This document shows positions 7,169-64,000 of a stretch of 64,000 nt of DNA, piece by piece. The notes below the pieces were generated by a model that had not been told where the DNA came from, made no database searches, and saw only the letters and a list, made by a program, of their open reading frames with translations. Made by a program: the position numbers and the translations under genes. Source of the stretch: Rhodanobacter sp. (GTDB lineage Bacteria > Pseudomonadota > Gammaproteobacteria > Xanthomonadales > Rhodanobacteraceae); assembly GCA_040371205.1 (NCBI GenBank), contig AP031382.1, positions 620,001 through 684,000 on the forward strand. Reading direction: 5' to 3'. Every line of letters begins with the position of its first letter. Within the stretch, counting starts at the first letter, position 1.

Positions 7169-7184
7169 ATCGGGCGTGGGGGTT

Positions 7185-8045
7185 CTACCCCGAAATCACG
7201 GACGGTTGTGAAAGGGTGGAAAACTTCAGATCCTGCTTTGCCTGCCTGCGCCGCATTCTCGGATTGTGGAACCGCTCGATGTATTCGAACACATCGGCTC
7301 TTGCTGCATCGAGCGTCGGATATTTCATGCGGTAGACACGCTCGCGCTTGAGCTGGCCGAAGAAGCCCTCGCAAGCCGCGTTGTCCCCGCAATGGCCGAC
7401 CGCGCTCATCGAGCATACCAACGCATTGGCCACCAGATAGTCCTGGTAGTCGCCGCTGCGGAACTGGCTGCCACGATCCGAATGCAGGATCACCGGCTCG
7501 CCTCCCTGGCGCTGCCACACGGCCATCTGCACGGCCCGGATCACCATCTGCCGGTCTTGCCGATGATGCATCGACCAACCCACGACCCGGTGGTCGAACA
7601 GGTCCAGCACGATGCATAGGTACAGCTTGCCTTCGTCGGTCTTGATCTCGGTGATGTCGGTGACCCACTTGGTCTCCGGCTCCTGTGCGGTGAAGTCCCG
7701 TTCCAGCCAGTTGCGCACGCCCGGTGGGGCCAGTCCCGGTTGAGCCCGCTGGCCGCGCCGCTTCTTGCGTGGCCAGCCCTGCAGGCCATCGGCCGCCATC
7801 AGACGCGCCACCCGGTTCAGGCTGGCCGACTCGCCTTCCGCGGCGAGGTCCTCATGCATCCGTCCCGCCCCCAACACGCCACGGCTGTCCTCGTGCAGTG
7901 CACGGATGCGGCCGAGCAGGCGATCGTTGTCGACCTGGCGGGCACTGGGCATGCGCTTGCTCCAATCGTAGTAGCCACTGGTCGACACCCGCAGACAGCG
8001 GCACATCAGCCGAACCGGAAACTCGTTGCGGCAACGTTCGATCAC
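7185..8045 (-). CDS. IS3-family transposase OrfB (copy 1)
   Basis: 286 aa from GTG 8045. DDE integrase core: an N-terminal HTH_21-like part ([10 protein letters not shown]), then D in [12 protein letters not shown] in [10 protein letters not shown] and E in [14 protein letters not shown]. As in other IS3 elements OrfB would be made alone or as a -1 frameshift fusion with OrfA; the orfA frame stops 8 nt before this start. A possible slippery run (minus-strand T TTT TTG, 8093-8099) lies upstream. Identical in sequence to the OrfB of copy 2. Confidence 0.93.
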
Positions 8046-8053
8046 CTGATACC

Positions 8054-8341
8054 TCAGGATGATCCCTTGGCAAAGAACGTCGCCGCTTCGCGCAAAAAAT
8101 CCCGCTCCTTCTTCACCCGGGCCAGCTCGCGCTTGAGCCTCGCCAGCTCCTCATCCCGCGGCGTTCCGCTACCGCCAAACGCGACCGACCCCTGGCTGTT
8201 GGACTCCCGTTTCCAGCGGGTCAACAGGTTCTCCCGGACCCCCAGCTCGCGGGCCACTTGGGCGCAACTGACACCCGGCTGCTTGGCCTATTCAACCGCA
8301 CCGCGCTTGAACTCCGCACTGAACTTTCTTCGCTTCGACAT
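8054..8341 (-). pseudogene. IS3-family OrfA (copy 1), amber-interrupted
   Basis: ATG at 8341 starts [17 protein letters not shown] and then meets TAG at 8288-8290 (codon 18), where copy 2 has a Gln codon. Beyond the stop the frame continues as a normal OrfA: a helix-turn-helix ([19 protein letters not shown]) and a Leu-rich tail to FFAKGSS. Copy 2 shows the intact 95-aa form. Confidence 0.9.
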
Positions 8342-8403
8342 GAACACTCCTCTGGGCCTCGAGCGGCCCTTTTGTAAGTGTCCGTGAAATCGGGGGTGAA
8401 CCC

Positions 8404-9148: not shown

Positions 9149-9370
9149 TTACAGCTCGAAGTAGCGGCTCGCAATTGACAGGTAAATGGCCTTGTCTCTT
9201 TCTGTAGCCCCGCCCTGAGCGTCATCACCCTTGCTGCTTTGTGGAGCTACCTTGGTGACGGATTGAGTGGAGGGCATATCCTTCCCCGAGGGACGGGCCC
9301 GGGCGCCGATGTCCCCGAATACACGAAGCTCAAGCTGCTGAGGGTGTTGGGCTTTGCGGTTCGTTGCCAT
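9149..9370 (-). CDS. small protein of unknown function coupled to the deaminase gene
   Basis: 73 aa (MATNRKAQHPQQLELRVFGD ... ERDKAIYLSIASRYFEL). The ATG at 9370 is chosen because GGGGAG lies 8 nt upstream; it overlaps the end of the deaminase gene by 41 bases in another frame, which suggests translational coupling. The middle is Ser/Gln/Asp-rich and probably disordered; the last 17 residues look helical. No family recognised. It may be a regulator or partner of the deaminase, or the truncated start of a longer gene cut when the locus was rearranged. Confidence 0.5.
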   Translation of the reverse strand: MATNRKAQHPQQLELRVFGDIGARARPSGKDMPSTQSVTKVAPQSSKGDDAQGGATERDKAIYLSIASRYFEL

Positions 9371-11024
9371 GGTCATCACTCCCCGGTTTTGCGACGGCAA
9401 GTGCGGGAAAATTCAGTTCTTTTTCAGTCACTTCCGCAACTACAGCCTGTTCAAGTCGTGGGATAGCCTTGAGGCTCACCTTCGTTGTTGGCTGAGCATC
9501 TGATCGACGGGGCAAGCTTAGCACGCCATTTTTCTTCCGGTCACCAGCTTCGAATAGTTCGATGAAGCGTCTCGGTGCGACGCCATCAAACTGAAGAAGT
9601 CGAACTTTTTTTTGGTCGTCGGCACGTTCCGATAACGTATCACTGTGTAGCTTAGTGGCCATGCTTTTCCTGTATGGCTCAATGTAATAAATCTCATTTA
9701 TGCCGGCGGCGACAATGTGTCTTGCACACGAATGGCAGGGGTAGGTTGTAACAAAAATTTTCCCTCCAACAAGTCGCTCTCCGGCTATTCTTGAGGCGGT
9801 GAGTATCGCATGCATTTCCGCATGAATCGCGCGAGAAAATTCTATAAGATCCTTGACTCTTGTGTTGTCTCTAATGGCCTCTTTTGCGGAAAGGATTTGA
9901 TTCGAATCTATTAATTTAACCTTTACTAGACTGTCCACGATTGCTTGAAGAATGCTATCTTTCTCGCGGTCATTGAAACAGGCGCCTCTGGGCAAGGCGA
10001 AGCATCGCTGATCTTTGGTGGGGTGGATGATTTCATGAGTTATTGGTGGTTTGCCATATAATCCGCCACCCTTTTGTGGAACATCATTCCAGCCAACGGC
10101 TAGTAGCTCGCCTGTTGAGCTAGTGACTGCGGCACCAACTTGTCGTGAAAGGCAGGCGGAATTCCGGGCTGCGGATGCTGATGCATACATCGCTGCTTCT
10201 TCCGGGTTTGGTGTGATTATACTTGATTGAAAGATAAGTGAGAATAGGCGCCTTAGCTTCTTTAGTATTTGTGGAATGGCATCAGATTCTTCGGGGCTAT
10301 GCGCCGCATGATCGACCCGTAGGAAAAAGTCGCATCTTGGAAATGTGTTCCTTACGGATTGTCCGTGCGCGAATTCTTCACCTGAATCAGTATCAACCAG
10401 ATCGTCAATTTCATTTTCTGAAAAAGCTCCGGGTTGACTTAGATTTTCCCTTCTTGTTTCAATTGTAGAGAAAACTCCTATTGAAAGTAGTGCGTCACCA
10501 TAAATTAGTCGAAGTAAATCCAATTCCGCATCGTTTTTTATCGAGTCTATAATGTGGCAAAAGCGATAACCGCGAATATTTTTCCCGCCAGATTTTCTAT
10601 TTTCATTAGCGGCATCGGAGATTTCTCCTAGATTATCCTGCCGATCGCCACTTATCTTGGCAATAGCTAATTTAGCAAGGACGTCATTCCCAAATTTTTG
10701 TCTCAGCTTGTCGCCGGCATTTATAAGTGATTTTATTTCCTTGAATCGAGATGAGCTGTCAATTGCCACGTCTACCTTGGTGGCGTTTATTTTTATCAAA
10801 TCACTAAGTCTAATGTTTTCGCAGGTATAGCGATGCTCTCGAAGGGCGTTGCATATCTGTTCGGCAGTTTCATGTAGTGGAGACCCGATCGGTCCACAGA
10901 GAGCAATGACTAGTTCAGGTGTGAGGCTGGCGGTCGCTTCCGCGCTTGAATTAACGGCTCGCTGGTTTGCAGCTCCTCGGGATGGAGGCTTGGGTGCCGA
11001 GGCTGAAGATTTGACTGCTGGCAT
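9330..11024 (-). CDS. AvcD-like antiphage deoxycytidylate deaminase (P-loop plus dCMP/dCTP deaminase)
   Basis: 564 aa from ATG 11024 (strong GGAAGGGGAA upstream). A Ser/Ala/Pro-rich N-terminal tail is followed by a P-loop-like GPIGSP (44-49) and a NMP-kinase-like region to about 270, then a zinc deaminase domain: YASASAARNSACLSRQVGA, H401-A-E403 and PC430HSC433. This two-domain layout matches the AvcD/CdaA-type deaminases that deplete dC nucleotides during phage infection; family members are controlled by the AvcI RNA. Base composition is clearly less GC-rich than the neighbours, indicating transfer. Housekeeping dCMP deaminase is unlikely because those are only about 150-180 aa. Confidence 0.8.
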   Translation of the reverse strand: MPAVKSSASAPKPPSRGAANQRAVNSSAEATASLTPELVIALCGPIGSPLHETAEQICNALREHRYTCENIRLSDLIKINATKVDVAIDSSSRFKEIKSLINAGDKLRQKFGNDVLAKLAIAKISGDRQDNLGEISDAANENRKSGGKNIRGYRFCHIIDSIKNDAELDLLRLIYGDALLSIGVFSTIETRRENLSQPGAFSENEIDDLVDTDSGEEFAHGQSVRNTFPRCDFFLRVDHAAHSPEESDAIPQILKKLRRLFSLIFQSSIITPNPEEAAMYASASAARNSACLSRQVGAAVTSSTGELLAVGWNDVPQKGGGLYGKPPITHEIIHPTKDQRCFALPRGACFNDREKDSILQAIVDSLVKVKLIDSNQILSAKEAIRDNTRVKDLIEFSRAIHAEMHAILTASRIAGERLVGGKIFVTTYPCHSCARHIVAAGINEIYYIEPYRKSMATKLHSDTLSERADDQKKVRLLQFDGVAPRRFIELFEAGDRKKNGVLSLPRRSDAQPTTKVSLKAIPRLEQAVVAEVTEKELNFPALAVAKPGSDDHGNEPQSPTPSAA

Positions 11025-11345
11025 TCGTTTTCCCCTTCCATGCGAATGATTGTTCGCGATGATGCCTTCTAGATGGAGCGAAGGCAATTAAGCTGTTAAC
11101 TGCTCACCGTCGGCCCATGGGGCGCTCATGAGCAAACAATGGAACAAGCAACCGGGTTTGGTTCACTCATCAGACCCGAACCAGCCCGGCGTGCCGGCAC
11201 ATGCATTGCGGTTGGGCGACGCTTCGGGCGCGGCGTTGCGCTCCGGCAGCCATCCCGCAGACAGCTTGGGCCTAGTAGGATGACGGTTCGCCTCGGCCCG
11301 TGGTGGCTTGCGGCACCTCTCGAACCTTGCCATCGGATCTTGCCC
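11025..11345. other. intergenic region between the deaminase and the Skp-like gene
   Basis: Divergent promoters are expected here. Two small hairpins lie just upstream of the deaminase start: 11042-11057 (5-bp stem) and 11064-11085 (6-bp stem). In known AvcID systems a regulatory RNA is encoded upstream of avcD, so this is where an AvcI-like RNA could be; the sequence alone does not prove one. Confidence 0.35.
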
Positions 11346-51984: not shown

Positions 51985-52491
51985 ATGGCACGCGGCATCA
52001 ACAAGGTCATCATCGTCGGCAATCTCGGCGCCGATCCCGAAACCCGCTACACCGGCAGCGGCACCGCCATCACCAGCCTGCGCATCGCCACTTCCGAACA
52101 GTGGACGGACAAGCAGAGCGGCGAGCGCCAGGAACGCACCGAGTGGCACCGCGTGAAACTGTTCGGCAAGCTGGCCGAGATCGCCGGCGAATACCTGAAG
52201 AAAGGCCGGCAGGTCTACATCGAAGGCGCGCTGCGCACCGACAAGTACACCGACAAGGATGGCGTCGAACGCTATTCCACCGACATCATCGCCAACGAGA
52301 TGCAGATGCTTGGCGGCGGTGGCGAAGGCGGCGGCAGCGGTGGCGGCGGCTTCCAGCGCGAGCGCCCGCAAGGCGGCCAGCGTCCGCAGGGCGGCGGCAA
52401 CTACGGCAACGCCTCTCGCGGCGGCGGCGCCTCCGCGCCATCCGCACCCGCCGGCAATGGCGGCTTCGAGGACGACGACATCCCGTTCTAG
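51985..52491 (+). CDS. ssb: single-stranded DNA-binding protein
   Basis: 168 aa. OB-fold domain about 1-110 ([60 protein letters not shown]), a Gly/Gln-rich linker and the acidic protein-binding tip EDDDIPF. Essential in replication and repair. The island at 52486-59410 is integrated at its 3' end, leaving the coding sequence complete. Confidence 0.97.
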
Positions 52492-52574
52492 ACAACACCT
52501 ATTTCTGAGTGTTGAAAAAAATGTGCAGGAGGCCCCGTTTCGACGGGGCCTCCTTTGTTTTTGGCCGTTCTGAC
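52486..52574 (+). repeat. left att-like repeat (ssb end plus terminator)
   Basis: Starts with the last codons of ssb (TTCTAG) and includes AACACCT, the hairpin and GGCCGTTCTGAC. Aligns with 59321-59410 over its whole length with scattered differences; the exact recombination core cannot be fixed. Confidence 0.65.
52527..52556 (+). terminator. ssb terminator
   Basis: Perfect 12-bp stem (52527-52538 with 52543-52554) with TTCG loop, followed by TTTGTTTTT. Confidence 0.9.
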
Positions 52575-52633
52575 AGTTGAAAAAGATTCTCTATGGTGGT
52601 GCACTTGTCCAAAGTGTAGAGAAAGGGTTCTCG

Positions 52634-52772
52634 GTGCCTCGACTCTCTGTCCATGTCATGCCCGGTGGCGAGCGGGTGCCGATGCTGCAGGACGAGCAGG
52701 GGTTACCGCTCTTCTATCCGACCCTCTTTGCCACCTCGCAGCTCCGCAATGCCGGGGCTGCCGTCAATACGA
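52634..52772 (+). pseudogene. tyrosine-type site-specific integrase, N-terminal fragment
   Basis: From GTG 52634, 46 codons read MPRLSVHVMPGGERVPMLQ-like sequence, then GLPLFYPTLFATSQLRNAG and AAVNT, before IS copy 2 interrupts. The phrase G-x-P-L-x-Y-P-T-L-x-x-T-x-x-R-N is typical of the N-terminus of phage/ICE-type tyrosine recombinases. Position right inside the left att repeat supports this. Catalytic part lost. Confidence 0.7.
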
Positions 52773-52777
52773 GGGTT

Positions 52778-53638
52778 CTACCCCGAAATCACGGACGGTT
52801 GTGAAAGGGTGGAAAACTTCAGATCCTGCTTTGCCTGCCTGCGCCGCATTCTCGGATTGTGGAACCGCTCGATGTATTCGAACACATCGGCTCTTGCTGC
52901 ATCGAGCGTCGGATATTTCATGCGGTAGACACGCTCGCGCTTGAGCTGGCCGAAGAAGCCCTCGCAAGCCGCGTTGTCCCCGCAATGGCCGACCGCGCTC
53001 ATCGAGCATACCAACGCATTGGCCACCAGATAGTCCTGGTAGTCGCCGCTGCGGAACTGGCTGCCACGATCCGAATGCAGGATCACCGGCTCGCCTCCCT
53101 GGCGCTGCCACACGGCCATCTGCACGGCCCGGATCACCATCTGCCGGTCTTGCCGATGATGCATCGACCAACCCACGACCCGGTGGTCGAACAGGTCCAG
53201 CACGATGCATAGGTACAGCTTGCCTTCGTCGGTCTTGATCTCGGTGATGTCGGTGACCCACTTGGTCTCCGGCTCCTGTGCGGTGAAGTCCCGTTCCAGC
53301 CAGTTGCGCACGCCCGGTGGGGCCAGTCCCGGTTGAGCCCGCTGGCCGCGCCGCTTCTTGCGTGGCCAGCCCTGCAGGCCATCGGCCGCCATCAGACGCG
53401 CCACCCGGTTCAGGCTGGCCGACTCGCCTTCCGCGGCGAGGTCCTCATGCATCCGTCCCGCCCCCAACACGCCACGGCTGTCCTCGTGCAGTGCACGGAT
53501 GCGGCCGAGCAGGCGATCGTTGTCGACCTGGCGGGCACTGGGCATGCGCTTGCTCCAATCGTAGTAGCCACTGGTCGACACCCGCAGACAGCGGCACATC
53601 AGCCGAACCGGAAACTCGTTGCGGCAACGTTCGATCAC
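52778..53638 (-). CDS. IS3-family transposase OrfB (copy 2)
   Basis: 286 aa from GTG 53638; the same protein as in copy 1, with the DDE residues in [20 protein letters not shown] and [11 protein letters not shown]. With an intact orfA beside it, this copy could supply transposase to both. Confidence 0.94.
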
Positions 53639-53646
53639 CTGATACC

Positions 53647-53934
53647 TCAGGATGATCCCTTGGCAAAGAACGTCGCCGCTTCGCGCAAAAAATCCCGCTC
53701 CTTCTTCACCCGGGCCAGCTCGCGCTTGAGCCTCGCCAGCTCCTCATCCCGCGGCGTTCCGCTACCGCCAAACGCGACCGACCCCTGGCTGTTGGACTCC
53801 CGTTTCCAGCGGGTCAACAGGTTCTCCCGGATCCCCAGCTCGCGGGCCACTTGGGCGCAACTGACACCCGGCTGCACGGCCTGTTCAACCGCACCGCGCT
53901 TGAACTCCGCACTGAACTTTCTTCGCTTCGACAT
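53647..53934 (-). CDS. IS3-family OrfA (copy 2, intact)
   Basis: 95 aa from ATG 53934. HTH_Tnp_1 domain: [20 protein letters not shown] then [19 protein letters not shown]; Leu-zipper-like C-terminus ([18 protein letters not shown]). Stop lies 8 nt before the OrfB start. Confidence 0.94.
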
Positions 53935-53996
53935 GAACACTCCTCTGGGCCTCGAGCGGCCCTTTTGTAAGTGTCCGTGAAATCGGGGGTGAACCC

Positions 53997-54720
53997 GACC
54001 GAACTCATGGTGCTCTGCGACCAACTGGAGGCCAGCCTCGCCACCGGCGAAACCACCCGCAGCCGCTTGCTTGACGCGCTGCTACACGAAGCGCTGGCCC
54101 CTGCTCCCACGGTGAACGTCGAACATCCACGAGCCGCCGTGAGTGGCTATGTGGTCTCACGTCTCGCCTCCAAACGAAGCTTCGGCCGTACCGCGCATAT
54201 GAAGCACCTCTATCTGGCCGAATCACGCCTTGGCCTGAAACTGGGAGGCCGCTACATGCGCGAGGCGGCCGGCCCGTTGGACAACGGCATCTACGCGTTG
54301 GAGAAGCAGGCGGAGACCGCTGGCTGGTACACCCACCACGTCGAGACGCTTCCTTCCGGCAAGGAAAAGGTGAGCTACGTGCCCGGCAAGGCTCTTAAGG
54401 CGTTGGCTAAAGAAGGCTTGGCCGTGCTCGGCCCCTCTCGCGCAGAGATGGATCGGCTGATCGACCTGATAGGCGGCTTGAAGACCGAGCAGGTCGAGAT
54501 CATCGCCACCCTGTTCGCCGCCTGGAACGACGCCCTGCTCGATGGCCAAGCTCCGGACGACGGCTGGATCGTCAAGGAAGTCCGCGAGCACTGGCACGCC
54601 AGCAAACAGCGCTTCAAGCCGGCCGAGCTGCACAAGTGGCTGGCATGGATGCGCCAGAACGACGTGATCCCCCTCGGCCATCCACCCCGCACGATGCAAC
54701 AAACCGCCATGGAGCTTTGA
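53997..54720 (+). pseudogene. 3' remnant of a type I restriction specificity gene (hsdS) with an unusual C-terminal domain
   Basis: Open from the IS edge to TGA 54720. It begins TELMVLCDQLEASLATGETT then RSRLLDALLHEALAP, the coiled-coil end of HsdS proteins. Instead of stopping it continues for about 190 residues (SGYVVSRLASKRSFGRTAHM, LYLAESRLGLKLGGRYMREA, AAGPLDNGIYALEKQA, ending TAMEL), a domain I cannot name that occurs fused to or beside some restriction subunits. No hsdM or hsdR is present. Confidence 0.65.
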
Positions 54721-54800
54721 CAAGGCTACGTGCGATACATTTATGCTGCGGGTAATTAAAAAAGACCATCATGTGATAAAGGTGTTTAAGGTGAACTGAA

Positions 54801-56735
54801 ATGGGAATAGCCGGCACCGAAATCGAGACCGCGTATCGGAAGCTCAAGAGCTACGTCTATTATGACAAGACCGATCTCAGGCTTCGCGAGCGATTGGCCA
54901 AGTTCGAGTGTTCTCCACAGTTTCTGGACAAACTGAAGGCGGTGCGTGAGGTTGCGGATTCGGACACACCGTCGAAGGACAGCCGGTTCAAGAAGTGGCT
55001 CACTGCCATCGGATTTCGCGTCGTCCCAAAGAAGTTGAAGCCCTTGCGCGCCGAGGATGCAGCGATTGCCGGAGATGGCGGAAAGTTCATCACCAATGTC
55101 ACGTCGGTCCCCGCGATTGAAGTCGAGACCGTTAACTACTTCTTTGACGGTCCCATCGAATTGCACCTACTAGCCGTTCTTTGGCTCATGCGGGAGGGGC
55201 GCTATCTGGATGAGGAGCTCCTTCCTGAGTGCTGTGGATCCAGACTGTCTCCCAGGCTGCGTGACGAGGACGACGACTCGCTTCAGCTCTTTACGAAGTA
55301 CCACGAGCAGTACTCGCGATGGCGCGACTCCGGCATCAAGAAGGCCAAGCAACTGTTGGTCGACGAGGGGAAAAGCGTAGCGATCCTTGGACTCGACCTG
55401 CAGGAATACTACTACCGCGTGGACATCGACTTTGACGAGGTCGGCGCTGCGCTCGAAGCAGCGATGGATGCTGACATGCCGAGTGGCGAAAAATCGCTTC
55501 TCGCCTGCATCGATGCCATCTGCAAGACGTATCGCAAGCGCATCGCTCCGTTGCTTTCCAAGACCCATTCCGACATTAAGGAGTCGGTGCTCGGGCTACC
55601 TATTGGCTTGTGCTCGTCAGTGGTCTTGGCGAACTGGTACCTGCAAGACTTTGATACTGCCGTGCTGAAGTCCGTCAGGCCTGCGTACTACGGTCGCTAT
55701 GTCGACGACATCCTTCTGGTCGTGCCCACGGCCCTCGATCCAACGGTGGACGAGGAAAGCCCTGTTGCTGCGTTCTTGCACGAATTGCTGGTCAAAACGA
55801 AGATCCTGAAGAAACCCGTTCAAGGCGTTTACCACCTACAGGCACGTCCCAATCTTCGCTTGCAGCGGTCGAAATGCATCCTGCAGTACTTCGACTCTCG
55901 CCACTCGATCGCCGGCTTGGAGAAGTTCAAGAAGAAGCTGGAGCAGAACGGGAGCGACTTCAGGTTGCTGCCTGTGGATGAAGCTGATAACTCGATGGAG
56001 GACGTAGCCTATGATCTGCTCTACGAGGGATCAGTGAACAAATTCCGAAGCGTAAAGGGCTTGGCGGAGAACCGCTATGAACTGGCTAAGCACTTAGCGC
56101 GACAGACCATCCTCCATCTCCTGACCGACGATCCTCCTGATCATAAAGTGAGCAAGGGGCTACAGAACTTCTTCAAAGGACGCAGCGCGATCGAGTACTT
56201 CGATCTATGGGAGCGTGTGACGACGTTACTGGGCATTGCTGGCGACAAGACGACATTGAAGGCATTCGTGAAGCAGCTGAAGTCGGAAATCGTCCGCGTA
56301 CGTGCCATGGATGGCGTCCTGACAAAGTATCTCGTGGTGGGCCTAGAGCGGCATCTCGATTTGGCGCTTTCGATGTCGAATGCCGTGTGCGAGCAGAACA
56401 TTGGAGTGTCGGACCTCATCGAAGATGCCCCATCGGGGCAGTTTCGGTATGCGAATCTTCTACGTCACCACTACGTCCGTGCTCCGTTGCTGAATTTCAC
56501 GAATTACACCGGGCCGCTCAGCGAGAGACGTCTTATTGCCCAGGTGAAGCGAGACGCCCGCAAGCTCGCTTACACGCCACGATTTCTGAACCTCGATGAA
56601 TGCATGCTGCTCGCCTACGGTGGCAATGTCAGGATCGGAAAGAAGTCGCCCTACGAATACGCGACCGAGGTGTTCATAGCGGCGAATCGACGGCCGCCCA
56701 GCGATGTAAGGTGGATCGAGCAGGAGGTCGAATGA
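54801..56735 (+). CDS. reverse transcriptase of the Unknown-Group/Abi (defence-associated) type
   Basis: 644 aa from ATG 54801 (AAGGTG 7 nt upstream). RT palm motifs: ILGLDLQEYYYRVDID (catalytic D199), LPIGLCSSVVLANWYL (about 267-281) and YYGRYVDDILLVVP (YVDD, 300-303). There is no maturase or endonuclease domain of group II introns and no retron msr/msd pattern nearby; about 320 residues of helical C-terminal sequence follow, as in Abi/UG RTs. Its stop overlaps the next gene, a nitrilase-fold protein. Known DRT1 (UG1) systems fuse RT and nitrilase, which makes an antiphage role likely here. Confidence 0.85.
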   Translation: MGIAGTEIETAYRKLKSYVYYDKTDLRLRERLAKFECSPQFLDKLKAVREVADSDTPSKDSRFKKWLTAIGFRVVPKKLKPLRAEDAAIAGDGGKFITNVTSVPAIEVETVNYFFDGPIELHLLAVLWLMREGRYLDEELLPECCGSRLSPRLRDEDDDSLQLFTKYHEQYSRWRDSGIKKAKQLLVDEGKSVAILGLDLQEYYYRVDIDFDEVGAALEAAMDADMPSGEKSLLACIDAICKTYRKRIAPLLSKTHSDIKESVLGLPIGLCSSVVLANWYLQDFDTAVLKSVRPAYYGRYVDDILLVVPTALDPTVDEESPVAAFLHELLVKTKILKKPVQGVYHLQARPNLRLQRSKCILQYFDSRHSIAGLEKFKKKLEQNGSDFRLLPVDEADNSMEDVAYDLLYEGSVNKFRSVKGLAENRYELAKHLARQTILHLLTDDPPDHKVSKGLQNFFKGRSAIEYFDLWERVTTLLGIAGDKTTLKAFVKQLKSEIVRVRAMDGVLTKYLVVGLERHLDLALSMSNAVCEQNIGVSDLIEDAPSGQFRYANLLRHHYVRAPLLNFTNYTGPLSERRLIAQVKRDARKLAYTPRFLNLDECMLLAYGGNVRIGKKSPYEYATEVFIAANRRPPSDVRWIEQEVE

Positions 56736-57667
56736 TGTCCGCTGTCCCTTACGACGAAGTCACGGTCGGTGTAGGCGCTACAGATCTTCACGACTCTATC
56801 CAGATTGCGCTGGCCAATATGCCAGTGGACGAGAAGGACATTGAAGCGAGCTATTTGGGGACGCCTCGGCTTGGCCGCGCTCGACTGAAGCCCTTCACCA
56901 CGCTGCTGAACGAAATCTCCAAGCACAGCGGGGACAACAAGCGGCCCGTGGATCTGGTCGTCTTCCCCGAAGTCAGCGTCCCTCATGCCTGGGAGAGCAT
57001 GCTCGCAGCCTGGGTGCGGCGCCATCGAATCGGTGTCGTTTGTGGTTTGGAGCACCGCATCGACTTCAAGGGCAGAGCCCATAACGAAGTGTTGGCCTTG
57101 CTTCCATACAAGACTGCTAGTGGGCATTGGGCGTGCCTGCCCGTGCGGCGTCTGAAGCGCTTCTGCTCGCCTGAGGAAAGGTTCGTCCTCGAGAATGAAG
57201 GGCTGCGCCTACCCAAGGACAAGCGCAACTCCTACCACCTCTTCCGATGGCGAGGCGCGAGCTTCGCGATCTACAACTGTTTCGAGCTTGCTTCGATAGA
57301 GGATCGATCCCTGTTCAAGGCGCGCGTGGACTTTATCGTTGCAACGGAGTTCAATCGCGACATCAACTACTTCTCCAACATCGTCGAGTCTGCAGCGCGC
57401 GATCTCCACTGCTACGTGATCCAGGTAAATGACTCTCGGTTTGGCGATTCCCGAGTCGTCAGCCCCTCCAGAACCGAAGTCATGAATCCTCTGCGCATCA
57501 AGGGCGGAGACAACTTGACGTTCTTGACGATGCGCCTGGACCTGAACGCGCTTCGGACACATCAGCGCAAGGGGTACGGATTGCAGAAGGAATCGCGCGA
57601 GTTCAAGCCTACGCCGCCAGACTTCCCGAAGTCCGAGTTGGATAAGCGCATAGCGCTCGGTAAGTAG
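56735..57667 (+). CDS. nitrilase-superfamily (carbon-nitrogen hydrolase) partner of the reverse transcriptase
   Basis: 310 aa; ATG 56735 overlaps the RT stop (TGATG) with AGGAGG 7 nt before it (ATG 56732 is a less well spaced alternative). Triad of the nitrilase fold: E79 (LVVFPEVSVP), K141 (RRLKRF) and C182 (AIYNCFELAS), so it should be catalytically competent. Later motifs (FIVATEFNRDINYFSNIVES, RDLHCYVIQVNDSRFG) keep the fold. Coupled translation indicates a stoichiometric partner of the RT; the substrate is unknown. Confidence 0.82.
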   Translation: MSAVPYDEVTVGVGATDLHDSIQIALANMPVDEKDIEASYLGTPRLGRARLKPFTTLLNEISKHSGDNKRPVDLVVFPEVSVPHAWESMLAAWVRRHRIGVVCGLEHRIDFKGRAHNEVLALLPYKTASGHWACLPVRRLKRFCSPEERFVLENEGLRLPKDKRNSYHLFRWRGASFAIYNCFELASIEDRSLFKARVDFIVATEFNRDINYFSNIVESAARDLHCYVIQVNDSRFGDSRVVSPSRTEVMNPLRIKGGDNLTFLTMRLDLNALRTHQRKGYGLQKESREFKPTPPDFPKSELDKRIALGK

Positions 57668-57873
57668 GTGGTCTTGTGCTGATCTTCGATAAGTGAGTCG
57701 GCAGAGAAATGTAGGGCAGGACCGAGAAGCTGCGCGGCTCATCCACTATAAAATTGGAAAATCTCAGAGACTCCTGTGTCCGTATGATGGCGTACTTATA
57801 AAAAGACGATCGACCACTTGCTGCGCTAGCGGTTGGTTTTTAGTTCCAGCGTTATGAGCGAGGAGGTGCAAGC

Positions 57874-58953
57874 GTGCTGACGCCCAGGGAAGTGGAAGAA
57901 AATGGCAGAGTCGTTTTTGGCATTGCACGTAAAATGCGCAGTTGGGCAGCTCGCTCGACTTTAAGAAGGCTTTTGCTATTGTTTATTACTGGAGTGATTA
58001 TTCTAGCGGCGCAAGTGCTTTGTCTGAACCATTTACTACGACAATCAAACGAAGCCTCGCAGTCCTACGTAAAAGCGGTACGTTTGCTTAGCGAAAAGAA
58101 CGCTGATCAAGCCGCATTAGATTCAATCTCAGCTTGTATCGAGTCACGAAGCGAAGTTGCAACATTACATAAGTGGTATTGCACTAAAGCAGATAGTTCG
58201 TTCAGAACAAGCACTAGAGGACTTACGGATCCGGGTGCGCAAGAGATTTTTCAGGGCCACGCATATCTTGCAATGAGAGACTTCATGCGCAATAAAATAC
58301 GCGGCCTGGCGTTAGATAGGCTCGTTCTGCCTTACGACTCATCACAAGGTAAGCAACTTACCTTTGTTGTGAGTAATGCGGGCATATGGATTTCGGCTAT
58401 AGGTACGTCCCTGCTGATGTTACTTATATTTTTGTACTTGGATGGATTTACAAAAGGTCAAAAGCAAAGTCGGAGAGTCATGACGCCGCGAGATTTTCAG
58501 AGCAACTTTGAAAGCAAAATACGCGTGCAGTTGGACTGGTCAAAATTTATCTCTTCCGACTGGCCAATTGAGCTTCGCTATTTTTCGATACCTGAGGATT
58601 CTAGTCTTGTCTACACCCCTTGGTATGCAAAACCCAACGGTTCGGCCTGTGCATATGATTCCCCCGATGCAACCCCTCAATCAGTAGCCTCGGTTGCTTC
58701 AAATAACGCGCTTCGCGCGCACCATAGAGTTTGCATCCACCCGCCTTTCGAATCAATCGTTATGGTTCCAGCGTATGGGCTAAGCGGGGAGTCCATTCTC
58801 TTGCTTGACGGAAGTCATCGGGCCGTTTCTTCTCGAGTGACATCAACTCAGCTTGGTTTAGTGGCCTTCGTAATAAAAGGGCCAATTGATAAGGATGTGC
58901 TCCCGGATCTCGTCCATTGGACTGTTTGCGCGCGCAGGGATCTGACTGGATAG
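57874..58953 (+). CDS. two-TM membrane protein of unknown function, island cargo
   Basis: 359 aa from GTG 57874 (AGGAGG 7 nt upstream). TM1 about 33-51, a periplasmic or external loop of about 115 residues, TM2 about 169-189 (WISAIGTSLLMLLIFLYLDG), then a soluble C-terminal domain of 170 residues (WPIELRYFSIPEDSSLVYTP, IVMVPAYGLSGESILLLD). No family recognised. It is markedly more AT-rich than its neighbours and 206 bases downstream of the nitrilase gene, with its own likely promoter, so it may be an effector, a separate system or a passenger. Confidence 0.7.
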   Translation: MLTPREVEENGRVVFGIARKMRSWAARSTLRRLLLLFITGVIILAAQVLCLNHLLRQSNEASQSYVKAVRLLSEKNADQAALDSISACIESRSEVATLHKWYCTKADSSFRTSTRGLTDPGAQEIFQGHAYLAMRDFMRNKIRGLALDRLVLPYDSSQGKQLTFVVSNAGIWISAIGTSLLMLLIFLYLDGFTKGQKQSRRVMTPRDFQSNFESKIRVQLDWSKFISSDWPIELRYFSIPEDSSLVYTPWYAKPNGSACAYDSPDATPQSVASVASNNALRAHHRVCIHPPFESIVMVPAYGLSGESILLLDGSHRAVSSRVTSTQLGLVAFVIKGPIDKDVLPDLVHWTVCARRDLTG

Positions 58954-59320
58954 TCGAAACTTGATTGACCAAGGTCGGCGTCGTCCAAGCTGACGCGCAG
59001 CGAAGATTCGCTGTCACTGGAGGTTGTCAATCGAAGGCGAGAACGATGGTCAGTCCGACGCGAGCGCTGACAAGCCACTGGAAATCCTGCTGACCGCATA
59101 CGAGCCCAAGCCTGGGCGGCCGTTCCACGAGCGGCAATCTTGGTCAAGTCGCGGAAGCGGTGAGAAAGGATGCCAAGGCACGCTGGAACTGGTGCTTTCT
59201 CTACTGTTCGAGTGGAAGTGGTTCAACATATGGCATCTTAGGATGCCAGTTTCCGCTGTATTCCAGAGTCCTTCACCGAATTTTAGACGATCTCAACTCG
59301 GCGAAAGGTGTATACAACCC
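58954..59320. other. degenerate sequence at the right end of the island
   Basis: No complete gene. A 100-codon open frame at 59024-59326 lacks family features. Possibly decayed island genes. Confidence 0.4.
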
Positions 59321-59410
59321 TTCTAGCGAACACCTTTTCTTGAAGGGTGAGAAAGTTGGATGGAAGGCCCCGTTTTGGCGGGGCCTTCTCTTTTTTCGGG
59401 CGGTTCTGAC
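59321..59410 (+). repeat. right att-like repeat
   Basis: TTCTAG, AACACCT, hairpin with GGCCCCG/CGGGGCC, T-run and GGTTCTGAC in the same order and spacing as 52486-52574. It carries its own functional-looking terminator (10-bp stem, 59363-59372 with 59379-59388). Confidence 0.65.
59363..59396 (+). terminator. intrinsic terminator in the right att repeat
   Basis: 10-bp perfect stem, TTTTGG loop, then TCTTTTTT. It would stop transcription leaving the island. Confidence 0.88.
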
Positions 59411-59474
59411 CGCCTTTGAATACCGGCGCGGTGCGGGATCAATTGCCGCTCAAGGAAATTTGCTCCCGGTCGCT

Positions 59475-61076
59475 TCAGTTCTCGGGTAGACCGAGTTGGA
59501 CAAGTACCTGCACATACCGATCGAAGGCTGCGAGAAAGACCGGGCTTCCGTTCTTTTTCGGCAACGGGACATTGTGTGTGGTGGAGCCGGGCCGCAGTCC
59601 GAGACCTTCGGCAAAGGCCGCTTTGGCCTCTTCGCTACGGCCGAGTTGATGATGAGCGACTGCCAGGGCGAAGTGGGTGCGCCCGGTGCCAGGCGTTACC
59701 GCAAGCGAACGCTCCAGCCACGGCAGCGCTTCTTCGTAGCGTTCCGTCAACATGTAGATCATTCCTGCGCCAAGCAGCCAGGTCCAGCGTGCGAAAGATG
59801 GCGTGTCGAAGGTGTCGGCGCGTTTGAAGCTCGCCAGTGCTTCCTCGAAACGGCCTTGCCGGGTTTGCGCGATGCCGAGGTGGAACAATGCGATGCCGTT
59901 CCAGGGATCGAAGCTGAGCATCCTGCCGCAGGCGATCAGGGTTTCAGGCAATTGGCCGGCCATGGTCAGTAGCCGGCAGTAGGCTTCGAGCACCGGGATG
60001 TAATACGGCTTCGCCTGCATGGCACGCTCCAGCAGGGCGCGTGCGCGGTTTTCGACGGTATCGGTATCGGCATGGTCATACCAAGCCGTTTGGGTGCCGC
60101 GGAGCATGTGCCCGGCCAGGGCCGCCATCAGGTCGACGTCGTCGGGACGATCCGCGAGCGCCTTTTCCAGCATTTGCTGGGCAACGCTGAAACGCTCGCG
60201 TGTGGTCTGGTTGATGATGGCGGTGGCCTGCTCGATCACGACCCTCGCGTGGCTGGCCGGCAATTCGTCCTCGCCGCCGCCCTGCATCCACGCGCCGGAG
60301 TTTTGCAGTGCGTTGATGCGAAGCGCGAGCGGATGGCCGAGTCCCGCGGCAAGGCGGGATTGCTGCAGGCCTGGATCGCCCTCTTCGGACGGCACCGTGG
60401 CCGAGCCGCTCCAGCGCACCTCGCCGGTGGCCGTCGCCGTCATGCGCGCCCGCGCCTCCCACTTGCCGCCGCTCCTGTGCAATTCGCCACTGACCACGAA
60501 GTCGGCGGCTACTCCAACGTCCAGCGATGGCACAGGTGCGCCGGGTGGCGGCGCGATGACGCGGATACGCTCGATCTTCGCGAGTCCGTCGGCGAGGCGC
60601 TCGCCGACGTGAGCCGCCATTCCGGCCCATAGCGCGGCGTCGACAGGCACCGTCAGCGGTCTCACGGCGATCGTGGGCGGGGCGGCAAGGTTGGCGCCGG
60701 GCTCGCGTCCCGCCGCTTCCGGCCCAGGCCTGTTCGTCACCTCGGCATCGAGCACGTAGCCCCGCCCGGGCACCAGGCGGAGCAATGCGTGGTTTTCGTC
60801 GCCGAGCGCCGCGCGGATCTCGCGGATGCACTGGAACAGGCCGTTTTCGCTGATCCGGACGTTCGGCCAGATCGCCTCGATCAGCTCCTGCTTGCCGAGC
60901 ACGCGCCCGGCACGGGAGGCGAACAGCCACAGCATGTCGAAGGACTTCGACCGCAACTTGATCGCCTCGCCGTCCGGGCCGCGCAGTTCGGCGCGATCCC
61001 GGTCGAGTTCATAGCCTGCCAGACACAGCACACTTGTCCTGTTTTTTTGCCCCTGGTCTGGCGAGGATATCAGCAA
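59475..61076 (-). CDS. winged-helix (OmpR-type) transcriptional regulator with TPR domain
   Basis: 533 aa from TTG 61076 (a downstream start is possible). N-terminal Trans_reg_C domain about 17-105 (LRSKSFDMLWLFASRAGRVL, LIEAIWPNVRISENGLFQCI, RGYVLDAEV). No membrane helix follows, unlike CadC; residues about 130-260 resemble the adenylate-cyclase-linked TolB-like linker, and about 330-520 are TPR repeats (ALFHLGIAQTRQGRFEEALA, LAVAHHQLGRSEEAKAAFAE). HilA/CadC-like one-component regulator, divergent from the adhesin gene. Confidence 0.85.
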   Translation of the reverse strand: MLISSPDQGQKNRTSVLCLAGYELDRDRAELRGPDGEAIKLRSKSFDMLWLFASRAGRVLGKQELIEAIWPNVRISENGLFQCIREIRAALGDENHALLRLVPGRGYVLDAEVTNRPGPEAAGREPGANLAAPPTIAVRPLTVPVDAALWAGMAAHVGERLADGLAKIERIRVIAPPPGAPVPSLDVGVAADFVVSGELHRSGGKWEARARMTATATGEVRWSGSATVPSEEGDPGLQQSRLAAGLGHPLALRINALQNSGAWMQGGGEDELPASHARVVIEQATAIINQTTRERFSVAQQMLEKALADRPDDVDLMAALAGHMLRGTQTAWYDHADTDTVENRARALLERAMQAKPYYIPVLEAYCRLLTMAGQLPETLIACGRMLSFDPWNGIALFHLGIAQTRQGRFEEALASFKRADTFDTPSFARWTWLLGAGMIYMLTERYEEALPWLERSLAVTPGTGRTHFALAVAHHQLGRSEEAKAAFAEGLGLRPGSTTHNVPLPKKNGSPVFLAAFDRYVQVLVQLGLPEN

Positions 61077-61149: not shown

Positions 61150-61524
61150 AGTCGGCAACGCGATTCCGTGAAACGATACGCAGCAGGCCGGATGCCGCTC
61201 GTACAGGGGCGAGCGAAGGGCCAAATGCGGCCATGCGTGCCGCCATCCAAAAACTGCGGGTGGGAGCCTCCACGTTCATCGTGTCCGAGGCAGGGGGAAG
61301 TGTTGCTTGAAATCTTCTGCCGCGAACTGTTGCGGGCCGGCCGGCGCGTTTCACCGGGCCCATGCCGCCTTCCGTAGAAGGCCCAACAGCCTGCCGCCTC
61401 GCTTCGGTGCGGTCCGTGCCTTCGCGCGAGCCGCGTCTTCCCCTGCGTTTCCATCGCCATGGCCGCAAGCGCCCATGGCCGATTGTTCTGCGTCTTCCCG
61501 CACCTTTCCGCTTCGAGGCACCCC

Positions 61525-64000
61525 ATGACCCGCATTGCTTCGTCCGCTCGCCGGACGCTACTCGCGCAGATGATCGCGGCCGCACTCACCTCGGCGCCGC
61601 TGCTCGCCGTGGCGCAACCGTTGTCCACGCGTGCAATGGCCACGGCGGGCAACATGGCGTACAGCCAGCCTGCGACGAGCCGCGTGGATGTGTCCAGCAC
61701 GGCGGCCGCCAACCTGCCCACGGGTGCGACGGTCGTGGCGGGCAACGTGACGTTCGACCAGTCCACGCCGAACGAGCTGGACATCCGTCAATCGTCCAGC
61801 GCCGCGATCACCAATTGGCAGGGTTTCTCCATCGGGGCAGGCTACACCGTCCGGTTCATCCAGCCTTCCGTGTCCAGCGTTTCGCTGAACCGCGTGGTCG
61901 GCAACGACCCCTCGGCGATCTACGGCAACCTCGTCGCCAACGGCCAGGTGTTCCTGATCAATGGCAATGGCATCCTGTTCGGCCGCAGCGCCCAGGTCGA
62001 CACCGGCGGCCTGGTGGCCTCCACGCTGAATCTCTCCGACCAGAACTTCCTGGCCGGCAACTACGTCTTCTCCGATCCCGGCAATACCCGCAGCGTCGTC
62101 AACCAGGGCCAACTCAAGGCCAACAGCGGCGGCACGCTCGCCCTGATCGGCCATCAGGCCATCAACCTGCGCAGCATGCAGGCCAGCCTCGGCAGCGTGG
62201 TGCTCGGCGCCGGCGGCACCGCCCAGCTCACGTTGGCCGGCAACAAGCTCATCAAGTTCGAGGTACGGCAGAGCGCACTCGGTGCCCTGGCGCAGAACGG
62301 CGGCCTGATCCAGGCCGACGGCGGGCAGGTCATCCTCAGCGCCGGCGCCAGGGACAGCCTGCTTGCCAGCACGGTCAACAACGACGGCATCGTCGAAGCC
62401 CGCACCGTGCAAGGCCAGTCCGGCCACATCCTGCTGCTCTCCGGCATGCAGGCCGGCACGACGCAGGTTGGCGGCACGCTCGACGCCAGCGCGCCCGATG
62501 GCGGCCATGGCGGCGCCATCGAGACCAGCGGCGCCCACGTACAGGTGGCCGACAGCGCGCACGTCACCACCAAGGCGGAGCACGACCAGTCCGGCAACTG
62601 GCTGATCGACCCCACCGACTTCACCATCGCCGCCAGCGGCGGCGACATGACCGGCGCCGCGCTGACCTCGGCCTTGACCGCCGGCAACGTCGCCATCCAG
62701 AGCAGCAGCGGCGCCGGCGGCACGGCCGGCGACATCAACGTCAACGATACCGTGGGCTGGAGCGCCAATACGCTCACGCTCAACGCGCAGCACGACATCA
62801 ACATCAACGCCGCGCTCAACGGCAGCGCCAGCGCCGGTCTTGCGCTGTGGTACGGCCAGGGCGCGGTGGCGGCTGGCAACACGGCCAGCTACAACGTCAA
62901 CGCGAAGGTCAGCCTGGCCAGCACCGGCAGCTTCCAGACCGTGCTGGGCAGCGACGGCAGTGCGATCAACTGGACCATCGTCACCAGCGTCGGAACAGCG
63001 TTCGATACCAGCGGCATCACCTTGCAGGGCATCAGTGGCAACCTGGCCGGCCACTACGTGCTGGGCGCGGACATCGACGCCAGCGGCACGAGCAACTGGG
63101 CTTCGGGCTTCGGCGGCACGGGCTTCGCACCTATCGGCATGGTTTACGGCAGCGGCAACAACGCCTTCACCGGCATGTTCGACGGGCTGGGGCACGTCAT
63201 CAGCGGCCTCACCATCAACTTGCCCGGCAACAACGGCACGGGCCTGTTTTACAACCTCAATGGCGCGACGGTCAGGAACGTCGGGCTGGTCGGCGGCGCT
63301 ATCACCGGCAACAGCAATACCGGCGCGCTGACGGGTTATGCCTACGGCGGCAGCGTCATCGACAACGTGTATGCCGCGGTCAATATCAACGGCAATGGCG
63401 CGGGTACGGGCCATGTCGGCGGCTTGGTGGGCTATATGAGTGGCGGCAGTATCAGCAACTCCCACACCACGGGTGGCGTCGGTGTCTACAACGCCTATCA
63501 GATCGGCGGCCTGGTGGGCTACCTGGATGGCGGCAGCATCAGCAATTCCTACGCCGGCGGCAATGTCAGCACCTCCGTTACCAGTGGCGGCAGCAATTCG
63601 TCGGCGGGCGGCCTGGTGGGCTACGTGGCGAATGGGGGCAGCATCAGCAACAGCTACGCCACCGGCAGCGTCCAGGGGCAATCCTCGCTGGGCGGCCTGG
63701 TGGGCTGGCTCTACAGCGGCAGCGTCAGCAACGTCTACGCCACGGGCAACGTCAGCCTCAACACGGGCAACCGCTTTGCGTTTGGCGGTCTGGTGGGGCG
63801 ATTCAACAGCGGCAGCATCAGCAACGCCTACGCCACGGGCACTGTCACAGGCAACTACCAAAGCTCCGAAGGCGGGGGGCTGATCGGCTGGATGCAGGGC
63901 GGCAGCGTCAGCGACACCTACGCGACGGGCAGCGTCAACCTTGGCGGAAATGCCAGCTTTGTATTTGGCGGTCTGGTCGGCGAGCTCGACGCGGGTAGCG
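61525..64000 (+). CDS. filamentous haemagglutinin-type two-partner-secretion adhesin (3' end outside window)
   Basis: 825 codons visible from ATG 61525. Long signal peptide (to about AVAQP), then the TPS secretion domain: ITNWQGFSIGAGYTVRFIQP, SLNRVVGNDPSAIYGNLVAN, FLINGNGILFGRSAQVDTGG. In place of the common NPNGI it has NGNGI. A beta-helical region follows, and from about residue 630 GLUG repeats (GGLVGYMSGGSISNSHTTG, repeated about every 30-35 residues). Exported by a TpsB partner not seen here. The coding DNA is repetitive, and the gene continues beyond the window. Confidence 0.9.
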   Translation, partial: MTRIASSARRTLLAQMIAAALTSAPLLAVAQPLSTRAMATAGNMAYSQPATSRVDVSSTAAANLPTGATVVAGNVTFDQSTPNELDIRQSSSAAITNWQGFSIGAGYTVRFIQPSVSSVSLNRVVGNDPSAIYGNLVANGQVFLINGNGILFGRSAQVDTGGLVASTLNLSDQNFLAGNYVFSDPGNTRSVVNQGQLKANSGGTLALIGHQAINLRSMQASLGSVVLGAGGTAQLTLAGNKLIKFEVRQSALGALAQNGGLIQADGGQVILSAGARDSLLASTVNNDGIVEARTVQGQSGHILLLSGMQAGTTQVGGTLDASAPDGGHGGAIETSGAHVQVADSAHVTTKAEHDQSGNWLIDPTDFTIAASGGDMTGAALTSALTAGNVAIQSSSGAGGTAGDINVNDTVGWSANTLTLNAQHDININAALNGSASAGLALWYGQGAVAAGNTASYNVNAKVSLASTGSFQTVLGSDGSAINWTIVTSVGTAFDTSGITLQGISGNLAGHYVLGADIDASGTSNWASGFGGTGFAPIGMVYGSGNNAFTGMFDGLGHVISGLTINLPGNNGTGLFYNLNGATVRNVGLVGGAITGNSNTGALTGYAYGGSVIDNVYAAVNINGNGAGTGHVGGLVGYMSGGSISNSHTTGGVGVYNAYQIGGLVGYLDGGSISNSYAGGNVSTSVTSGGSNSSAGGLVGYVANGGSISNSYATGSVQGQSSLGGLVGWLYSGSVSNVYATGNVSLNTGNRFAFGGLVGRFNSGSISNAYATGTVTGNYQSSEGGGLIGWMQGGSVSDTYATGSVNLGGNASFVFGGLVGELDAGS

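Follow-up and report, generated by a model that had tools for sequence, protein, structure and literature searches.

The defence-associated reverse transcriptases (DRTs) DRT1, DRT5S, and DRT5L synthesize DNA without a supplied template, and the product is protein-bound (PMC13275509). DRT1 carries reverse transcriptase (RT) and nitrilase on a single polypeptide, as an earlier note on the DNA treated here had held; synthesis is primed at S402, the DNA adducts drive tetramers into filaments, and a domain-swapped C-terminal tail lies over the nitrilase site (PMC13275509). A fused RT-nitrilase of the UG5-large kind is described from P4 satellites of E. coli, and a fused UG5 RT-nitrilase with a transmembrane (TM) protein is listed among the systems validated in E. 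coli (PMC9122126); nitrilase co-occurrence is given as 50% for UG5 RTs (PMC8934634). We analyzed a locus in which the two enzymes are encoded separately, within a stretch of 64,000 nucleotides from Rhodanobacter sp. (contig AP031382.1, 620,001-684,000, forward strand; this whole stretch is referred to hereafter as the window, and coordinates are positions in it).

By sequence, the locus holds an intact RT and an intact nitrilase as two polypeptides, whose genes overlap or abut and are paired in every close relative found. The anti-phage RT family is a known one, here in an uncommon two-gene form, and the earlier note went too far in presenting it as a candidate new antiphage system: PADLOC-DB (2023) already includes the models RT_UG5_small and RTasNitrilase, and a 2026 paper purified a protein named "DRT5S" (PMC13275509). 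Taking the analysis as a whole, we think it reasonably probable that the pair is a two-gene class 3 DRT of the UG5-small kind, in which RT-DNA adducts would hold the separate nitrilase inactive until infection. The features that carry this comparison are as follows.

54801..56735, + strand: UG5-small RT, 644 amino acids, ATG start (PADLOC RT_UG5_small, 966.5 bits, residues 5-637)
55395..55397, + strand: RT catalytic Asp199 (same residue in 11/11 UG5 RTs)
55698..55709, + strand: RT YVDD motif, Y300-D303 (unchanged in 11/11 UG5 RTs)
55953..55955, + strand: Ser385, predicted as candidate priming serine (sole RT Ser/Thr invariant in 11/11 UG5 RTs)
56732..57667, + strand: separate nitrilase-superfamily hydrolase, 311 amino acids, or 310 from the ATG at 56735 (profile matches)
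56732..56735, + strand: ATGA overlap of RT stop and nitrilase start (from junction sequences at five loci)
56969..56971, + strand: nitrilase Glu80 (invariant in 10/10 aligned nitrilases)
57155..57157, + strand: nitrilase Lys142 (invariant in 10/10)
57278..57280, + strand: nitrilase Cys183 (invariant in 10/10)
57605..57616, + strand: C-terminal K292-P-x-P motif, put forward as equivalent to the lid tail of DRT1 (K1219...P1222; K292, P293, and P295 invariant in 10/10)

Profile searches against PADLOC-DB place the RT within UG5. It scores 966 bits with RT_UG5_small (E 1e-291); two RT_UG5-nitrilase models follow at 423 and 333 bits, and Drt1a comes at 50. Of its close relatives introduced below, L002 and L005 score 1023 and 950 bits with RT_UG5_small. 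The three classes of UG/Abi RTs and the UG5 subgroups were reportedly defined by Mestre et al. in 2022. By these scores the protein is a UG5 RT, and neither a UG1/DRT1, a retron, nor a group II RT. Membership of DRT1 (UG1), the kinship that had been suggested for it, was rejected on the 966 versus 50 bits, and on the encoding of RT and nitrilase as two overlapping open reading frames (ORFs) in different frame; the retron St85 and group II models were far weaker (24 bits, with 235 needed, and 19 bits, with 300 needed, respectively), such that a grouping with retrons or group II introns, which would have spoken against the earlier note, is not what we find. RT_UG5_small is probably the "DRT5S" of PMC13275509.

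The hydrolase matches RT_UG5-nitrilase with 310 bits (E 8e-93) and RTasNitrilase with 114 bits, the latter a partial fit (positions 177-395 of 397). It covers positions 635-894 of the 907-position RT_UG5-nitrilase model, and the RT covers positions 24-600 of the same model; the two genes together therefore span nearly the whole of the fused model. A Pfam search by itself would have revealed neither protein, both falling under the gathering score (CN_hydrolase 12 bits against a cut-off of 23.2). All NCBIfam matches of the RT are sub-threshold, and Rfam gave no match at gathering score across 52400-59500. In a profile search of solved structures DRT1 (9YFD) ranks first with the RT (E 5e-16) and is the sole match at E 0.001 with the nitrilase (E 1e-16). 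The predicted nitrilase model, of low confidence (mean pLDDT 64), retrieves nitrilase-superfamily amidases and carbamoylases in Foldseek (best E 5e-10, TM-scores near 0.5, root-mean-square deviations of 8-15 Å); this model does not tell the substrate.

Both active sites are in place. The UG/Abi-like RT with YVDD and D199 that had been noticed holds up, D199, D302, and D303 all being present and invariant in the 11 aligned UG5 RTs, as does the nitrilase triad given earlier as E79-K141-C182, which becomes E80-K142-C183 when counted from 56732; E149 is likewise invariant in the 10 aligned nitrilases. The one-base overlap described between the genes stands if the nitrilase ATG is that at 56735, and fails if it is that at 56732, which gives the four-base ATGA overlap (both are in frame). 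A further in-frame start lies at 56600, within the RT gene. A start at the junction appears likelier than this one, because the nitrilase frame in the close relatives opens few bases before the RT end (27 in L002, 6 in L004, 16 in L005, and 49 in L003).

Such pairs are rare in the collections searched. At E 1e-30 the window's own genome alone matched among 398 genomes of its order and 398 of its phylum (overlapping sets, own genome included); the phages searched gave no RT match, and E. coli genomes gave none by blastn. Two partial matches, 27% identical, were found on E. coli plasmids, the one examined being part of a UG5-large fusion. Scans with short peptide patterns, which miss diverged members, yielded three close relatives from 57 candidate stretches of genome contigs (L002, Allopusillimonas; L003, a Nitrosomonadales metagenome-assembled genome (MAG); L004, a Roseateles MAG) and one from 25 candidate stretches of viral contigs (L005). 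Partial matches of ~60 bits (L010, L011, L012, L014) lie outside the analysis.

The link between RT and nitrilase is conserved, as the earlier note would have it: a separate nitrilase ORF stands at the RT stop in five of five RTs of this clade (the window and L002-L005; the L003 contig ends inside the nitrilase, leaving 199 aligned residues). Identities to the window run parallel for the two proteins, at 71, 64, 65, and 58% for the RT and 80, 74, 73, and 63% for the nitrilase (L002, L004, L005, and L003, respectively). A single shared overlap, for which the earlier note proposed a search, is not seen. Counted from the final base of the RT stop codon, the nitrilase starts at -3 in the window, 0 in L002, -7 in L003, -3 in L004, and +5 in L005, giving overlaps of 4, 1, 8, and 4 bases and, in L005, a 4-base gap (start codons at the junctions were chosen by us, with TTG in L004 and GTG in L005). 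Nor is the frame offset from RT to nitrilase constant (2, 2, 1, 2, and 1 for the window and L002-L005); therefore no conserved frameshift joins RT and nitrilase, and a programmed frameshift yielding a fusion was ruled out. An upstream non-coding RNA was likewise rejected, with no Rfam match and, in L003, an RT ATG one base past the preceding stop, which leaves no space for one.

To place the split, we compared the pair with fused relatives. L018, found in a search of 251 genomes from the order to which a UG5-large carrier belongs (7 gave matches), is a single protein of 1001 amino acids that aligns with the window RT at 33% identity over 669 columns and with the nitrilase at 38% over 292; the split point aligns with the L018 linker, and no domain is lost. 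When 11 RT-nitrilase proteins are placed in one tree, the four split pairs that are complete group together (support 100/99) with L018 as sister (100/100), a group of five UG5-large fusions branches next (99/99), and a Leptospira RT-nitrilase on a very long branch, flagged by treekit, is the outgroup; L003, with its cut nitrilase, and the short loci L019-L023 and L026 were omitted. An RT-only tree of 14 rows, adding L003, L074, L075, and L073, gives the same picture, the five split RTs grouping at 93/93 (weaker support for the split clade than in the two-gene tree; this tree is midpoint rooted without an outgroup and carries long-branch warnings). Nine relatives with the full nitrilase in view are fused single ORFs (L006, L007, L008, L016, L017, L018, L054, L074, and L075), among which L074 and L075, seen in longer stretches, encode 1078 and 1081 amino acids. 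No nitrilase match was found in L072, L076, or L077: for L076 and L077 the gene extends beyond the sequence, and the L072 contig stops 120 bases past a 508-amino-acid ORF. Because fused proteins occupy the outer branches, a single fission is the simplest reading; a fused ancestor of this clade probably split only once. A split clade nested beside a fused sister indicates that RT and nitrilase need not share one chain.

Two elements of the DRT1 mechanism have candidate counterparts in the split proteins. Ser385 lies 82 residues beyond D303, compared with 77 residues from D325 to the priming S402 in DRT1 (PMC13275509). At the nitrilase C-terminus the KPxP residues are invariant across split and fused kinds, and the DRT1 tail K1219-T-Q-P1222-A-G-F1225 can be set against K292-P-T-P295-P-D-F298 of the window at equal spacing, in a register set by eye. 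DRT1 tail substitutions K1219A and A1223F are as damaging as C-terminal deletions (PMC13275509), and the KPxP on the free nitrilase is perhaps a lid tail.

Because both proteins are homologous to those of the published DRT1/DRT5 work, we propose a DRT1-like cycle, but one in which an in-trans interaction replaces the covalent RT-nitrilase link. The RT would add semi-random, template-free DNA to itself by protein priming, with Ser385 the best candidate primer; the RT-DNA adducts would then gather the free nitrilases as a multimer, where the C-terminal KPxP tail from one subunit may cap the active site of the neighboring nitrilase and so keep it dormant. A phage enzyme that disturbs the adduct would release the lid, and the freed nitrilase would hydrolyze an essential metabolite, such that the infected cell is stopped. 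A fuller version, in which a natural split DRT uses its covalent RT-DNA adduct as an antitoxin scaffold to control a free, lid-tailed nitrilase toxin in trans, with Ser385 as a UG5-specific primer, is put forward tentatively, as possible but somewhat short of probable. Were it true, the one-gene "minimal retron" DRT1 would become a two-part, toxin-antitoxin-like system. The two-gene version allows RT and nitrilase to be purified, mutated, and mixed separately, and hence permits asking whether the covalent RT-nitrilase link is required. In the literature searched we met no description of a split UG5 RT-nitrilase pair, which is not proof of its absence from print, and none of the split's origin, the shared KPxP tail, or Ser385.

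Several observations weigh against this proposal. DRT1 S402 is stated not to be conserved among other class 3 DRTs (PMC13275509), for which reason Ser385 is a prediction drawn from its invariance; three tyrosines (Y167, Y297, and Y300) share that invariance in 11/11 UG5 RTs, and a tyrosine could prime. HMMER, unlike the by-eye register, places DRT1 F1225 at the residue preceding KPxP. The split loci found number only five, and the scanned neighbors of L002 (0/2) and L004 (0/2) are blank in PADLOC. The equation of DRT5S with RT_UG5_small rests on the name, "UG5" being absent from the main text of PMC13275509, and the RT structure model (pLDDT 41) is too poor for a fold search. Finally, L073 (3345-6366, minus strand, in the draft genome G1392) encodes a UG5-large RT and nitrilase in two frames that overlap, and would be a second origin if it were a true split; by homology its frame change falls inside the nitrilase domain, which suggests a fused gene that is broken or misassembled.

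The alternative that survives best, although we regard it as unlikely, also grants the locus a defence role but makes the nitrilase an independent small-molecule enzyme, regulated by neither RT nor DNA and linked to the RT only by co-expression. This would suit the separate polypeptides in every member found, and the resemblance of the modeled fold to amidases and carbamoylases; it sits poorly with the homology of RT and nitrilase to both DRT1 domains, which work together in a single assembly, and with the retention of the KPxP tail.

The earlier note had also allowed for a third component, encoded by the next gene downstream:

57874..58953, + strand: membrane protein ORF with two hydrophobic TM-like stretches, 206 bases 3' of the nitrilase

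On this reading, which we judge improbable, the two-TM protein would be a membrane effector with the RT-nitrilase pair as its sensor or regulator, comparable to the role proposed for the TM partners of DRT1 and of E. coli UG5. The gene is next in the island and on the same strand as the pair, ~18% of drt1 genes adjoin a TM gene, drt1b (PMC13275509), and a TM partner accompanied the E. coli UG5 fusion (PMC9122126). Nevertheless, it is set off by the 206-base gap and differs in composition, with a GC content of 0.47 against 0.56-0.58 for RT and nitrilase, and of 0.44 against 0.71-0.73 at third codon positions (GC3). Its protein has no match in 14 other genomes of the genus or among 72,556 plasmid records (the search extended to neither phages nor other genomes), no match in PADLOC or NCBIfam, and in Pfam a match below cut-off only; no ORF resembling it occurs in L002, L004, or L005 (the L003 contig having ended), and the membrane protein is thus not supported as a system component. 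It is not similar to the product of the ORF 3' of the UG5 gene on an E. coli plasmid (L017), which lacks any TM-like stretch. The membrane gene probably does not belong to the RT-nitrilase system.

Very unlikely, in our view, is a role outside defence, as a mobile-element RT with a metabolic nitrilase. L005 does lie on a contig of a viral collection, but relatives are reported to defend (PMC13275509, PMC9122126), and defence-type neighbors occur at three of the four other loci (ten neighboring proteins scanned). L003 has a type III methylase, L005 has two CAP12/PCTIR TIR proteins along with one Schlafen-group helicase, and L002, from Pfam matches only, has HipA and an AbiU2-like HEPN protein. 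The two L004 neighbors have no PADLOC match, and one is a DUF2026 protein. As a separate observation, the AbiU2-like HEPN gene of Allopusillimonas (L002 9245-9835, Pfam) lies ~360 bases 3' of the split pair.

That the pair is a fused gene that has broken, or an artefact of assembly or frameshift, has next to no likelihood: all nine outside relatives with a full nitrilase are single ORFs, and L073 shows that frames can break in this family, but five loci from separate assemblies have differing junctions and frames, and the break falls between domains with the active sites intact.

The two-gene DRT that we favor lies, as had been recognized, in an island, marked by low GC content (0.51-0.58 in 2-kb intervals starting at 54001-58001, against 0.66 for the whole window) and by flanking direct repeats. 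The island spans 6.8 kb at the 3' end of ssb, and holds a remnant of a restriction gene in front of the RT:

52478..52574, + strand: left flank repeat, the ssb 3' end and a terminator-like hairpin (72/98 columns identical to the right copy, E 6e-10)
53997..54720, + strand: type I restriction specificity subunit remnant, C-terminal (PADLOC Specificity_I, positions 555-789 of 792)
59314..59410, + strand: right flank repeat (90% identical over 81 bp to G1407 DNA at the ssb end)

An IS3-family element (52773-53996; seven matches in the genome including itself, 99-100%) removed the front of the specificity gene adjoining the RT. Elsewhere in the window, a copy of this element (7180-8403) holds an IS3-family transposase gene (7185-8045), ~1.3 kb from which lies a low-GC gene for a 585-amino-acid deaminase (9330-11087, minus strand; PADLOC dCTPase, 549 bits), presumably, from the model's name, of the dCTP deaminase type of phage defence. 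Within the genus, the ssb 3' end and the terminator-like hairpin behind it appear to be a site of repeated insertion, from comparison of the loci L055, L056, L057, and L059 (genomes G1406, G1405, G1407, and G328, respectively). G1407 has a single repeat copy at the site and G1405 one copy within 10 kb after ssb; G328 has a different 5.5-kb insert, closed by another repeat copy and beyond it matching G1405; and G1406 has an integrase gene directly after ssb, together with a second ORF with a sub-cut-off Phage_integrase match. A recognizable insert follows ssb in 3 of 13 genomes (the window's own and 12 others), the remaining downstream regions not having been analyzed gene by gene. A scan for promoters and terminators performed at chance (3 promoter-like sites with 2.7 expected; 6 terminator-like with 5.0). 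Just outside the right repeat lies a regulator with a DNA-binding domain and TPR repeats (59475-61076, minus strand), which has only partial relatives in the 14 other genomes of the genus (best 37% over ~118 residues); beyond it, the start of a large two-partner-secretion (TPS) exoprotein with a TPS domain and GLUG repeats (61459-63999, plus strand) runs off the window.

Set beside the known systems, the window RT has the same length as the UG5-small RTs (PADLOC RT_UG5_small) and belongs to the same family, with no difference found in the RT itself; its standalone nitrilase fits the C-terminus of the UG5-nitrilase model (310 bits) better than RTasNitrilase (114). DRT1 (UG1; 9YFD) likewise combines a class 3 RT with a nitrilase, both halves being homologous to the window proteins, but does so in a single chain of 1229 amino acids where the window has separate RT and nitrilase. 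The UG5-large fusions (RT_UG5-nitrilase) share with the window both enzymes, the gene order, the active sites, and the KPxP tail, at identities of 19-21% for the RT and 24-28% for the nitrilase; they are one polypeptide, of 942-1073 amino acids in five examples (L008 being short at its start), whereas the window has two. The nearest relative outside the split clade is L018, matched by the second RT_UG5-nitrilase model (PDLC02995, 911 bits), but this too is a single chain, of 1001 amino acids.

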